Part shown: in pieces, positions 56,829 through 62,203 of the stretch
Layout: every line of letters begins with the position of its first letter
Position numbering within the stretch: the stretch's first letter is position 1
NCBI GenBank assembly: GCA_947490145.1
Contig: CANLGD010000006.1
Coordinates: 1 to 64,000 of the forward strand
Source of the DNA: Flavobacteriia bacterium
GTDB taxonomy: Bacteria; Bacteroidota; Bacteroidia; Flavobacteriales_D; Crocinitomicaceae
DNA: 64,000 nt
Reading direction: 5' to 3'
Made by a program: the position numbers and the translations under genes
Notes under the pieces: model-generated
Told to the model about the DNA's origin: nothing
Database searches by the model: none
What the model saw: only the letters and a program-made list of their open reading frames with translations

Positions 56829-57677
56829 TTACTTGATTTTTAGTTTGTAAAATTTGTTTTTTAAAGCCGAACTGTAATATTCATCAGCAATATATAAATG
56901 TTTTCCTTTTCTGCAAAGCGCTTCTTTCTGGCTAATAAGTTCGAGTTTAATTCTTTTTATTTTTTCAAATTTTTCGTTGGTGCAGGAAAAAATTTCTATA
57001 GATGAGTAGGTTAATAAATAACAAATGCCATTTTCAATTTCAGCAGCTGTTACTCCGTCTAATTTCATTTTTCGATCTTTCAATTGAATTGATTGAAGGA
57101 ATTTCGCTTTTCTTTGCCCCTTCTTACAGGATAATTTATAAGCATTGCAAATTCCAGAATATGGCTCCGTTCTGCATTTTGTGAAAAGATATAATTCATC
57201 TTCAAAATATGCAATCGCTTCACAATCAAATAAAAAACAATCTTTATTTGGTGGAAAATCTTTCTGATCTTCGTAAGAGAATTCAATAATTTCCGCTTTT
57301 ACTTCTTTTTTGAAAAGTAAAGAATCAATTGTAATTATATAAATACATAAATCTTTTCTGGAGTTTGAATTATTTCCTACATCAGCAATGTAAATGTTTT
57401 TTTCATCACGAGTAAGATCTTCCCAATCAACATTTTTAGCATTTGTCACCACAACCTCATGAATGATGTCTCCGTTTTTATTTAAAACAAATAGTTTGGG
57501 ATCATTTCCTCCATCATTGTGAGCTAAAAAACAAGAATCATTTAAAACTTCCAATCCAGAAATTTCATTCAGTTTTTTATTTAGATTGGAAATTTTATCT
57601 AAGGATTGTGAGAAAAAGAAATTCGCAGTGACGAAGGAAAAAAGAATCAGTAAAATAAATCTAATCTGCATATTCAT
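56829..57677 (-). CDS. secreted beta-propeller-like hypothetical protein
   Basis: signal peptide; LNEISGLEVLNDSCFLAHNDGGNDPKLFVLN, VDWEDLTRDEKNIYIADVGNN; 17-bp overlap with upstream gene. Confidence 0.78.
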   Translation of the reverse strand: MNMQIRFILLILFSFVTANFFFSQSLDKISNLNKKLNEISGLEVLNDSCFLAHNDGGNDPKLFVLNKNGDIIHEVVVTNAKNVDWEDLTRDEKNIYIADVGNNSNSRKDLCIYIITIDSLLFKKEVKAEIIEFSYEDQKDFPPNKDCFLFDCEAIAYFEDELYLFTKCRTEPYSGICNAYKLSCKKGQRKAKFLQSIQLKDRKMKLDGVTAAEIENGICYLLTYSSIEIFSCTNEKFEKIKRIKLELISQKEALCRKGKHLYIADEYYSSALKNKFYKLKIK

Positions 57678-60600
57678 CCCGTTCTAATCGTTCTTTTACT
57701 TCTTCCAAGTTTTGCATTTTTTTCGCTTGACGTGTACTTTTCGCTGTCTCAGTAAAATACTGATGTTGCGTTAAAAACATCACTTGAATTTCATCCCATT
57801 TGCGGTCGCTGTCAATTTTACCATGCTCCCGTAATTCCAAGCGTAATTTATCTGCAATGAAATGAAAATCATCTCTTCCAAGGTAATCTAAATCGGCATC
57901 ACAGATTATTTCTTCCAATTTGTTTGTTGGCTTGTGCGGAATTTGAGTAACATAAATTAACCGTCTGATTTCTTCAATGTGTTCATTTGTATAACCGTAG
58001 CTTGGCAAAATTTCCCCAGCCATTCTTGCTCCAACAGGTTCGTTTTTATCATAACTTTCAACAAAACCAGCATCGTGATAAGTTGCGGCAGATTTTAACA
58101 AAAACAAACCGTCATCGGCAACACCTTCAAGCAAAGCCAAACGTTCAACTGCACGACACACATCTTTTGTGTGGGCAATACTGTGATAATGTAATTTTGG
58201 AGATAATTTTTTCTGCAAAACCTTCATAATATGTCGCTCAGCTTTATAATAATTAATGCTACTATAATGATGAAGGTTGACAATTTGATGAAAACGATCA
58301 TTTGGAAATAAGCCTAAACCATCTTGTGAAAGTTCTGGTTTTATGCCATCAACCGTGTACATATCAATCAAACCTTTACTTTTTGATTTTACCTTTCCTT
58401 TAAAAGTACACAAGAAATAAGGTTCAATAAATTGGAATGTTTGTCCAGAAATAGTTACTTTTCCAGGCTCACCAAGCATTTCCATTCGTTGCGCTTGATT
58501 TACAGTTGCTCCCCAAATGTCGTAAGCTAATTTTTCTGAACCAATAACACCAGCTGTAACTTCACCTGTGTTGATTCCCAAGCGTAAATCCCAAACCACT
58601 CTTCCTGAAATTAACGCTTCATGACGCATGATTTCCATGCTTTCTTGAATTTGAAGTGCTGCAATACACGCATCAATTGGATTGGTGTTGTTTCTTACAG
58701 GTACGCCGCCAGCACACATGTATGCGTCACCAATTGTTTTGATTTTTTCTAAATTATTGTTGACAATAATTTCATCAAATTTACTAAAATAAATATCCAA
58801 TTCATTCACCAGTTCAGATGGGCTCATTTTTTCTGCAATCTTAGTAAAACCTACAAAATCTGTAAATAAAACTGAAACAGTTTTATAGGCTCTGGCACTT
58901 GCCTTTCCTTTTGCCTTTATTTCTTGAAAAGTTGATTCTGGAATAATATTTTTAAGTAATTTTTCTGTTTTTTCCTTTTCAATTTCGAGCAGTTGTTTTT
59001 GTTCTTCTAAATTATTTTTCTTTTCTTCTATTGTTGCTCGTTGTTTTTCAATTTGAATATTTTGTTCTCTTATTTCACGTGTTCTTTCAACAATTTTCAT
59101 TTCCAAGCGCACTTGTTGGCGCCGTTCAGCCTCAATTTTTGTTCTTGTATAAACTAAAATAAATATTCCAATAAAAAATATACAAAGAATCCAAAACCAA
59201 GTCCTTTTCCAAAATGGTGCTGCCAAATATATTTGTATTTCAGCAGGTTTCGAACTCCATTCACCATTTCCTAATCGAGCATAAACTTTTAAAGTGTAAT
59301 CTCCAGGATCAAGTGAATTAAAATGAATTTGATTTGAGTTTCCAATCATTATTTCACCTTCGTCTGAACCAAGTAAATCATATTTATAAGTAACTAATCT
59401 TGGATTACTCATATCATAAGCCATGAATTTGACTGTGAAATTTCTTTGTTTGTAATTCAGTTCTATTCTCTTGGTTTCAGCAAAATTCTTATATAAAATT
59501 CCCTCTTCTAAATTAGGTTTTAGCCATTGCGCATCTAATTTAAATTTTGTGAAAACCACGTCTGTTTTTTTTCGTTGATTATCAAAGGTTATTGGATTGA
59601 AATAATTAAATCCATTGATTGTTCCAAAATAAAAATCTCCTTTTTTAGCATTTAAGTATGCTCCTTGATTAAATTCTGTGGAAACTAAACCGTCTAATTC
59701 TGTATAATTTTCAAAGCCTTTCTTTTCCAAAGAAAATTTTGAAATTCCTTTATTGGTGCTTAACCAAAGGTTTCCATTTTTATCATTCAAAATTCCATAA
59801 ATGACATTGTTTGGCATTCCATTTTTCTTATTATAAAGTGTTGCTTTCTTTTCTCTAAAATTATATTCAATCATTCCAGAACCCATCGTTCCAAAATAAT
59901 AAATGTCTTTAGAAACCTGAATTATGTTGGTGATGTAATCTTTAGAAGTACTAGTTAAAATTTCATTTTCCTCGAAAGGTATAATCTTTAAGCCAGCTTT
60001 CTCGCTTAAATAATTCAAACCACCTAAACTTGTAGGAAACCAAATTTTTCCATTGTTATCTTTATACATTGAACGACAAATTCCATTTGAAATAGTCGTT
60101 TTTACCTCCAAAGGATTATGTTCAAAGGACTGAAAATTGCCTTTATTTCTATCATAAAGTAAAATCCCACCTTTTGTAGCAATAAAGTATAAATTTTGCT
60201 TCCAGTGAAGCATTGAGTACGTTAGTTCAAAATTAGATTGATTTATCAGTCCTTTGTATTTTATTTTCTCAAAACTGTAAGCGTAAGCTGATTGGATTTT
60301 CAAAATATACAAACCTTCTGTTGTGCCTACTAAAACTTCATTTTTATCAACAACTAAAATAGATAATATCAAAGATTCGTTCTTTCCAACCGTTGAAGTC
60401 GTTTTTTTTCGTAAAAATTGATCAAATTTTCCAGTAATTAAATTTTTTCGTGAAATTGCATTATCCGTGCCGATAAAAATATAATTTCCACTTTTATCTT
60501 CAGAAAAACACCATACACTTGGAGAAGGAATTCCCTTAGTTAAATCACCACTTGGTTCGACACTCAAAAAACCTTTATTGAAAGGATTGAAACTACCAAT

Positions 60601-61569
60601 CCCCCGTTCAGTTGCAACCCAGAAAGTTCCAGTTTTGTCTTTGAAAATTTTATTTACAGAATTAAATAATAATGCATTTTTTTGAAAAATGTCTTGTGTA
60701 TTTTGAGCTAATTTTGAGATTTTATCTTTATCAAAAATTGTTATTAATCCCTGAGCTTTTGTTGTAATAAAATACTGATTTTCATTTTGAACATAAATAT
60801 CCAACACGTCAATTAATCCATAATCTTTTTCTATTTTGGGTAAATAGGCAGTCGTTGTTGTTTTCTTACTATCAAATTGATACAGTCCTTGGTTTGAACC
60901 AAGTAACCACAAATTGGTGCTTTTTTGTTCAATGGTATTAATTCTTACATAAACCTTCTGCTTTCCAAGAACTTTTACATCTGAAACTTTTTTTGTTAAG
61001 ATATTTAAGAGGTATAAACCTTTGTCTTCTGTGCTTACAAAAAGCGTTTTTTCATCTAAAAATTTGAGAAAAAGAATTTTATTCGAGGGAATTTTTGAAA
61101 TAAAGAAGTTGAATTTATGTGTTTTTTTATTGAAAACACATAATCCGTTTGAACTAGTTCCAAACCACAAATTACCTTTTTTGTCCTCAGTAATGGTTTC
61201 AATCTGTAATGCGAAACCACCCTTTAGTTGAAATGTTCTAAATTTTTCTGTGTGAGGATTATAATTTGTAAGTCCATTCGATGTTCCAAACCATAAATTT
61301 CCATCTTTTGACTTAAAGGAGGTTTTTATATACGAATTTTCAATTCCTTCTGTATTATCAGCCGAGAAATTTTCAAATGTTTGTCCGTCAAACCTATTTA
61401 ATCCATCCTGTGTACCAAACCATAATCCTCCGTATTTATCTTGTTCAATTGAGGTTACGGAACTTTGCGAAAGGCCATCAATGATAGAATAATTTTTAAA
61501 ACGATATGTACTTTGCCCGAAACTTATGAAAAAGTTTAAGAAAAATAAAGTACATATTATTTTCTTCAT
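57661..61569 (-). CDS. hybrid sensor: two-component regulator propeller + Y_Y_Y domain + TM + coiled coil + class III adenylate cyclase + HD phosphohydrolase domain
   Basis: Reg_prop repeats (GLWFGTQDGLNRFDG...), TM ILCIFFIGIFILVYT, SVLFTDFVGFTKIAEKM, IKTIGDAYMCAGG, LAYDIWGATVNQAQRME, HYHSIAHTKDV...ATYHDAGF...DADLDYLGR. Confidence 0.92.
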   Translation of the reverse strand: MKKIICTLFFLNFFISFGQSTYRFKNYSIIDGLSQSSVTSIEQDKYGGLWFGTQDGLNRFDGQTFENFSADNTEGIENSYIKTSFKSKDGNLWFGTSNGLTNYNPHTEKFRTFQLKGGFALQIETITEDKKGNLWFGTSSNGLCVFNKKTHKFNFFISKIPSNKILFLKFLDEKTLFVSTEDKGLYLLNILTKKVSDVKVLGKQKVYVRINTIEQKSTNLWLLGSNQGLYQFDSKKTTTTAYLPKIEKDYGLIDVLDIYVQNENQYFITTKAQGLITIFDKDKISKLAQNTQDIFQKNALLFNSVNKIFKDKTGTFWVATERGIGSFNPFNKGFLSVEPSGDLTKGIPSPSVWCFSEDKSGNYIFIGTDNAISRKNLITGKFDQFLRKKTTSTVGKNESLILSILVVDKNEVLVGTTEGLYILKIQSAYAYSFEKIKYKGLINQSNFELTYSMLHWKQNLYFIATKGGILLYDRNKGNFQSFEHNPLEVKTTISNGICRSMYKDNNGKIWFPTSLGGLNYLSEKAGLKIIPFEENEILTSTSKDYITNIIQVSKDIYYFGTMGSGMIEYNFREKKATLYNKKNGMPNNVIYGILNDKNGNLWLSTNKGISKFSLEKKGFENYTELDGLVSTEFNQGAYLNAKKGDFYFGTINGFNYFNPITFDNQRKKTDVVFTKFKLDAQWLKPNLEEGILYKNFAETKRIELNYKQRNFTVKFMAYDMSNPRLVTYKYDLLGSDEGEIMIGNSNQIHFNSLDPGDYTLKVYARLGNGEWSSKPAEIQIYLAAPFWKRTWFWILCIFFIGIFILVYTRTKIEAERRQQVRLEMKIVERTREIREQNIQIEKQRATIEEKKNNLEEQKQLLEIEKEKTEKLLKNIIPESTFQEIKAKGKASARAYKTVSVLFTDFVGFTKIAEKMSPSELVNELDIYFSKFDEIIVNNNLEKIKTIGDAYMCAGGVPVRNNTNPIDACIAALQIQESMEIMRHEALISGRVVWDLRLGINTGEVTAGVIGSEKLAYDIWGATVNQAQRMEMLGEPGKVTISGQTFQFIEPYFLCTFKGKVKSKSKGLIDMYTVDGIKPELSQDGLGLFPNDRFHQIVNLHHYSSINYYKAERHIMKVLQKKLSPKLHYHSIAHTKDVCRAVERLALLEGVADDGLFLLKSAATYHDAGFVESYDKNEPVGARMAGEILPSYGYTNEHIEEIRRLIYVTQIPHKPTNKLEEIICDADLDYLGRDDFHFIADKLRLELREHGKIDSDRKWDEIQVMFLTQHQYFTETAKSTRQAKKMQNLEEVKERLERDEYAD

Positions 61570-61684: not shown

Positions 61685-62203
61685 TTAAGCTGGTTGACTT
61701 GCTATTTTAGCACTAAGGTTTACGGCTGCCTCCAAGTCTCTATCAAACATATACATTCCACCTTTATCACCTCCAATTAAACGTAATTTATCTAAAATTG
61801 AACGGGCCAAGGCTTCTTCTTCAAGTTGCTCAGAAACATACCATTGCACAAAATTATGTGTCGTATAATCCTTTTCTTGAAGACAAATATCTACTAAATT
61901 ATTGATACTCGCAGTAACTGCTAATTCATGTTCTAATAATAATTCAAAAACACGCTCTAAATTATCAAATTCAACAGGAGGTTGCGCAATTCCAGGAATC
62001 ACAGCTTTTCCCCCGCGTTCGTTAATAAATTTTATCAATTTCAGCATGTGAAAACGTTCCTCATCTGAATGAGTGTAAAGAAACTTAGAAGTTCCATTTA
62101 GGCCATTGTTTTCAGACCAAGAAGCCATTGCTAAATAAAATTGTGACGATGAACTTTCTTTTATTACTTGTTCATTAAGTGCTTTTTCAACGCGAGGATT
62201 CAT
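61685..62203 (-). CDS. non-heme ferritin
   Basis: [79 protein letters not shown]-like. Confidence 0.95.
   Translation of the reverse strand: [172 protein letters not shown]

Follow-up and report, generated by a model that had tools for sequence, protein, structure and literature searches.

The window, the whole 64,000-nucleotide stretch of DNA that was analysed, carries on its minus strand an open reading frame of 1302 amino acids (aa) that runs from 61569 to 57661 with no internal stop. The order of modules in the encoded protein is a propeller, a Y_Y_Y domain, a transmembrane (TM) helix, a coiled coil, a class III cyclase, and an HD domain. A preliminary description had placed all of these in one continuous chain at 57661-61569, and this has been borne out, as orthologues with the identical architecture are found elsewhere. 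Furthermore, the cyclase and the HD domain lie in the same single frame in dozens of independent genomes, which rules out an assembly artefact or a frameshift between the modules.

The chain opens with a stretch that reads as a signal peptide (aa 1-20, 61510-61569, MKKIICTLFFLNFFISFGQS), which would place the propeller outside the inner membrane. The Reg_prop beta-propeller sensor region follows (aa ~21-715, 59425-61509; PF07494, E 4e-30), and its matches in the PDB are the hybrid two-component sensor domains 4a2l (E 5e-87) and 3v9f (E 1e-64). Next come the Y_Y_Y domain (aa 720-781, 59227-59412; PF07495, E 3e-11) and a single TM helix, read from the sequence as the hydrophobic stretch WFWILCIFFIGIFILVY (aa ~790-809, 59143-59202). 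A coiled-coil or signalling helix (aa ~828-875, 58945-59088), which AlphaFold2, given aa 828-1302, predicts as a single long helix, leads into the class III cyclase (aa 892-1074, 58348-58896; PF00211, E 1.4e-43). Thus, the Reg_prop, Y_Y_Y, and cyclase assignments made earlier are confirmed by Pfam. The last module is an HD phosphohydrolase domain (aa ~1078-1302, 57664-58338), recognised by AlphaFold2, by Foldseek, and by PF01966 in relatives. Its presence had been proposed before and is upheld by the fold, the ligands, and the relatives, but the span then given, 57750-58235, was slightly short of the conserved unit (~58338-57664). All of these features are on the minus strand. The joint model of coiled coil, cyclase, and HD has a mean pLDDT of 90 and a pTM of 0.79. 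No HisKA or HATPase domain was found by Pfam in the 1302-aa chain, so there is no histidine kinase output.

Directly upstream, after a gap of 115 bp and on the same strand, lies a ferritin gene (61685-62203, minus strand; PF00210, E 1e-39). It is a conserved neighbour: a ferritin gene occupies this position, in the same orientation, in 32 of the 70 relatives having upstream DNA, and two genomes from a different family (L305, L306) likewise have ferritin upstream. The sensor might be connected with iron or oxidative stress. In some relatives that lack the ferritin gene (L096, L097, L108, L112, L122), an upstream overlapping gene encodes a similar protein, which in L097 (1-1788) is a HAMP-SpoIIE phosphatase-like sensor by Pfam. 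Downstream, an open reading frame at 56829-57677 overlaps the gene by 17 bp; it is present at one locus and is not conserved as a neighbour.

The cyclase scores 149 bits with PF00211, against a cut-off of 21.9, and retains all six catalytic residues of class III enzymes: D904, D948, K944, D1017, N1024, and R1028. In this class, the first two bind metal, K944 and D1017 correspond to the pair that selects adenine, and N1024 and R1028 to the residues that act on the transition state. The metal-binding aspartates had been assigned previously to FTDFVGFT and IKTIGDAYM, and they are located there as D904 and D948, respectively; the Lys and Asp said to favour ATP are likewise found, as K944 in IKTIGDAYM and D1017 in YDIWG, and are conserved in relatives. 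Across 86 aligned sequences the six residues are conserved, the exceptions being an R to Q change in six and one degenerate relative (L038). The K944/D1017 pair is invariant in the aligned relatives, save for D to S in one degenerate member. Guanylyl cyclases have Glu and Cys at the substrate-selecting pair, whereas adenylyl cyclases have Lys and Asp. In an alignment with AC9, EKIKTIGD and YDIWG fall on the substrate residues of the C2 side and FTDFVGFT on the metal site of the C1 side. The alignment thus covers both half-sites, and a single chain holds both, as in a homodimeric adenylate cyclase. The top Foldseek match of the domain is the bacterial adenylyl cyclase 5o5l (E 4.5e-16). From these residues, ATP is inferred to be the substrate and cAMP the product. 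A degenerate cyclase was considered for the window protein and rejected, since the catalytic residues are kept. Degeneration does occur in two relatives (L038, L171), where a metal-binding D is replaced by E and the substrate D is lost while the HD domain stays intact.

The combination of cyclase and HD is not confined to this locus. A scan of GTDB contigs returned 565 relatives, and the best 80 of these 565 are mostly from metagenome-assembled genomes of Crocinitomicaceae and other Flavobacteriales, together with Brumimicrobium isolates. The HD domain is carried by 54 of 59 relatives, and an orthologue of ~1300 aa is present in nearly all sampled Crocinitomicaceae genomes. In most members of the family there is, in addition, a shorter match, often a paralogue of ~575 aa; in the genome of the window this paralogue is a 565-aa REC-cyclase-HD protein (L002, contig C1, 802-2499), whose input is a response-regulator receiver. 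Relative to the nearest named orthologue, dS is saturated, and no dN/dS value was obtained. More widely, of 395 Bacteroidia genomes sampled, at least 60, from 10 families, have cyclase and HD in one frame; this is a lower bound counted from the listed matches. The front ends of these fusions include the propeller, a receiver, TPR (L172), a kinase-AAA-GAF assembly of 1866 aa (L279), a TM segment only (L166, L173), and, read by eye, a GAF-like N-terminus (L165). Several shorter variants of ~525-550 aa (e.g. L083, L089, L104, L128) have no propeller and comprise just a TM segment, the coiled coil, the cyclase, and the HD. Cyclase and HD together form a widespread module that can be joined to different sensors. 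Most other cyclase matches in the 395 genomes end ahead of the HD part of the model, and many open reading frames of ~1040-1190 aa in Bacteroidia, one of which (L176) was read, appear to be propeller/Y_Y_Y cyclases with no HD. It had been proposed that the sensor is unusual in its output. This holds for the HD domain but not for the cyclase end: propeller-cyclase sensors without HD appear to be common, and so the HD, rather than the cyclase, is the unusual part.

What, then, does the HD domain do? With PF01966 it reaches 17.5 bits, below the cut-off of 22, and the same profile matches 55 of the 68 HD domains that were aligned from the orthologues (best E 5e-11). The AlphaFold2 model of the HD alone has a mean pLDDT of 96.1. 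The motifs recognised earlier are found as H1129 and H1133 in YHSIAHT, H1165-D1166 in YHDAGF, and D1224 in DADLDYLG; together with T1208, these residues show no variation among some 190 fused and unfused homologues, and E1177, D1226, W1258, and Q1262 are nearly invariant. The overall pattern is YHxxxHTxDV ... (Y/F)HDxG(F/Y) ... E ... T ... DxD ... W ... H ... T. Thus, both active sites of the chain are conserved, and alignment revealed no loss of catalytic residues in either. N1176 stands where most homologues outside the cyclase fusions have the His of 'HE'. Position 1262 also differs among relatives: it is Q in all 101 propeller fusions, in the REC fusions, in 25 of 28 other fusions, and in all near-cyclase HDs, and it is N, S, or E in all eight proteins in which the HD is joined to PycTM. 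This split makes it a candidate specificity position.

A search of the PDB by sequence with the HD domain alone gave no match, and a profile search gave only one plausible match, the uncharacterised HD hydrolase 2pq7 (E 0.016). With Foldseek, 2pq7 again comes first (E 5.2e-3), followed by cyclic-nucleotide phosphodiesterases (PDEs), namely PDE4D (from E 5.7e-3), PDE5A, and PDE10A, which make up most of the top 50 (TMq 0.48-0.65, probability 1.00). The many PDE structures in the PDB inflate their share, so this list supports a PDE role rather than proving it; moreover, the E-values of the PDEs are weak and about equal to that of 2pq7. YpgQ, which is not known to be a cyclic-nucleotide (cNMP) phosphodiesterase, appears lower in the top 50, including its ADP complexes, with scores near those of the PDEs. 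The H-x3-H spacing with the general-acid His is present in YHSIAHT, and both histidines are invariant. This spacing is not exclusive to PDEs. Above its cut-off, the class I profile PF00233 (PDEase_I) does not match the domain, and there are sub-threshold matches in some homologues only; membership of class I was rejected on this profile. The class I enzymes also have an invariant Gln that binds the purine, for which Q1262 is a candidate counterpart.

Members of the HD family that are not fused to a cyclase give a further view of its associations. At 11 of 37 HD loci that are neither fused nor joined to PycTM, a class III cyclase lies within ~3 kb, against an expectation of at most 0.9 (assuming 16 cyclases per genome; binomial tail 9e-10); these 11 span five families and are not fully independent. 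One such locus (L167) has a histidine kinase, a REC-cyclase, and a separate HD gene, and another (L168) has two tandem cyclases and a separate HD gene. In a tree of 110 HD domains, the cyclase-linked members form one supported group (96/99), outside of which lie the HDs fused to PycTM, a Pycsar effector domain (E 1e-29). Fusions of the latter kind were read in L044, L046, L048, L291, and L292, and many further frames of 390-460 aa are probably of this type too. In L278 (1656-4170), the HD is fused to a YitT membrane protein with DUF2179 (Pfam), overlapping a REC-cyclase gene; together with L273, L274, and L275, this is a recurrent HD-YitT cassette near a cyclase gene. Two proteins of 863-880 aa (L276, L277) combine a TIR-like N-terminus, TolB-like/TPR parts, and HD (the TIR and TolB assignments were made by eye, and Pfam identified TPR and HD in L276), and the gene in L277 adjoins a REC-cyclase. 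Membership of the window protein itself in a Pycsar system was rejected: PycTM was not found in its genome, and the padloc PycC profile matches the cyclase at E 1.3e-13, far more weakly than PF00211 does. Among the immediate neighbours that were scanned, no PycTM or PycTIR Pfam domain was seen.

Judged from the residues, conservation of both active sites makes it more likely than a single sequence could that synthesis and degradation of nucleotides are combined in one chain, as had been suggested, and the nucleotide degraded would most plausibly be the cyclase's own product. These considerations have led to a model, which we regard as the most likely reading and as somewhat more probable than not, in which the protein is an adenylate cyclase that is gated by a ligand and has its own built-in cNMP phosphodiesterase, both within one membrane receptor chain. 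In this model, the periplasmic propeller/Y_Y_Y unit would sense an external ligand; binding would change the dimerising coiled coil through the one TM helix and so control a homodimeric class III cyclase, a mode of control suggested by the architecture of hybrid two-component sensors. The cyclase would then make cAMP, and the HD, as a metal-dependent 3',5'-cyclic-nucleotide phosphodiesterase, would hydrolyse it, a role suggested by its genomic association, fold, and residues. Thus, a single chain would control how the messenger is made as well as how it is removed. In seven genomes of the family searched for class I and class II PDEs, none of either class was found above cut-off, which makes the HD a plausible remover of the messenger.

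The reading that comes closest to competing, though we consider it unlikely, is that an active cyclase is combined with an HD that acts on another nucleotide, so that cAMP synthesis is coupled to a different pool. The HD might be a dNTP/NTP pyrophosphohydrolase or a YpgQ-type 5'-nucleotidase, or might clear an inhibitory by-product. The top structural match to the uncharacterised 2pq7, the YpgQ-ADP complexes within the top 50, and the existence of some standalone members with no cyclase nearby are all compatible with such a role. However, the recurrent fusion or adjacency of the family with class III cyclases and PycTM points to cyclic nucleotides.

Somewhat less probable again is a regulatory HD, which would bind a nucleotide, perhaps the product, and tune the cyclase allosterically with little turnover. 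The HD does sit directly C-terminal to the cyclase in the confident joint model, and N1176, in place of the 'HE' His, could weaken the second metal site. On the other hand, none of the five core ligands varies, nor does the extra His, standalone HDs occur, and the two relatives with degenerate cyclases retain an intact HD, which suggests that the HD has a catalytic job of its own.

That the cyclase makes cCMP or cUMP in Pycsar fashion, with the HD degrading that messenger, is improbable. In its favour, other Bacteroidota have members of the family fused to PycTM, a canonical CRP receptor was not found, and there is the PycC match. Against it, K944/D1017 is the adenine-selecting pair, the PycC match is far below that of PF00211 and is probably explained by the fold common to class III enzymes, PycTM was not found in the genome, and the HDs joined to it fall outside the cyclase-linked clade. 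As regards the receptor, the genome of the window has only two cNMP_binding proteins (C13:42819 and C19:4743; L053, L054). Read by eye, both lack the CRP-type Arg that contacts cAMP, as do 20 further cNMP_binding matches read in two relatives. No regulator with the canonical CRP-type Arg was thus found in the genome, and a cAMP output is putative.

Returning to the built-in phosphodiesterase, a broader proposal, to which we give even chances, is that the HD family represents a type of bacterial cNMP phosphodiesterase not recognised before, which would close cNMP circuits across Bacteroidota, whether joined to or lying next to class III cyclases or joined to PycTM, with the window protein as a self-terminating receptor. 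Little has been described of cNMP turnover in Bacteroidota in the literature searched, and for the enzyme that degrades cNMPs, so far missing, the HD offers a concrete candidate. In addition, the HD-PycTM fusions suggest that the family may also serve Pycsar-type effectors.

Each part of the protein has known relatives: neither the cyclase, nor the propeller, nor the HD is new by itself, and plants have a cyclase-PDE fusion, in reversed order and with another PDE family. With the hybrid two-component sensors of Bacteroidota (4a2l, 3v9f), the window protein shares Reg_prop, Y_Y_Y, and the single TM, but its output is a cyclase and an HD instead of a histidine kinase and a receiver. Its cyclase has the fold and all of the catalytic residues of Rv1625c, 5o5k/5o5l, and AC9; unlike these, it is followed by a C-terminal HD. 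The HD shares its fold and the H-x3-H ... HD ... D arrangement with the class I enzymes PDE4, PDE5, and PDE10, yet it is smaller than their domain and lies outside their PF00233 profile. The HD-PycTM proteins contain the same HD family, but there it is placed N-terminally, the chain has no cyclase, and position 1262 is other than Q. The open-access literature searched gave no account of a bacterial module made of cyclase and HD, and nothing relevant was found for Bacteroidetes cyclase with HD, Reg_prop with cyclase, or DUF5706 with HD.

In GGDEF-EAL and GGDEF-HD-GYP proteins, synthesis and hydrolysis of a messenger are opposed within one sensor chain, and variants with a degenerate synthase exist. 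The messenger and the enzyme families differ from those of the window protein, which is proposed as the cNMP counterpart, and the degenerate cyclases beside an intact HD in L038 and L171 recall the degenerate GGDEF domains that regulate EAL. Among characterised proteins, the closest analogue is CAPE (COMBINED AC with PDE), a plant protein of Marchantia polymorpha and other streptophytes, for which both activities have been shown (PMC5159850, PMC8115329). Replacement of His199/His203 in MpCAPE abolished its PDE activity (PMC5159850), and the x3 spacing of H1129/H1133 in the window protein equals that of this pair. Both are membrane-associated chains that join a class III adenylyl cyclase to an HD-fold PDE, the latter being a prediction here. 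In CAPE, however, a class I PDE is N-terminal and the cyclase C-terminal, with two TM helices between them, whereas in the window protein the cyclase comes first, the HD is of a different, smaller family, and a bacterial propeller sensor and one TM helix precede both. If the proposed mechanism is correct, the window protein would be a bacterial counterpart of both plant CAPE and the GGDEF-EAL proteins.
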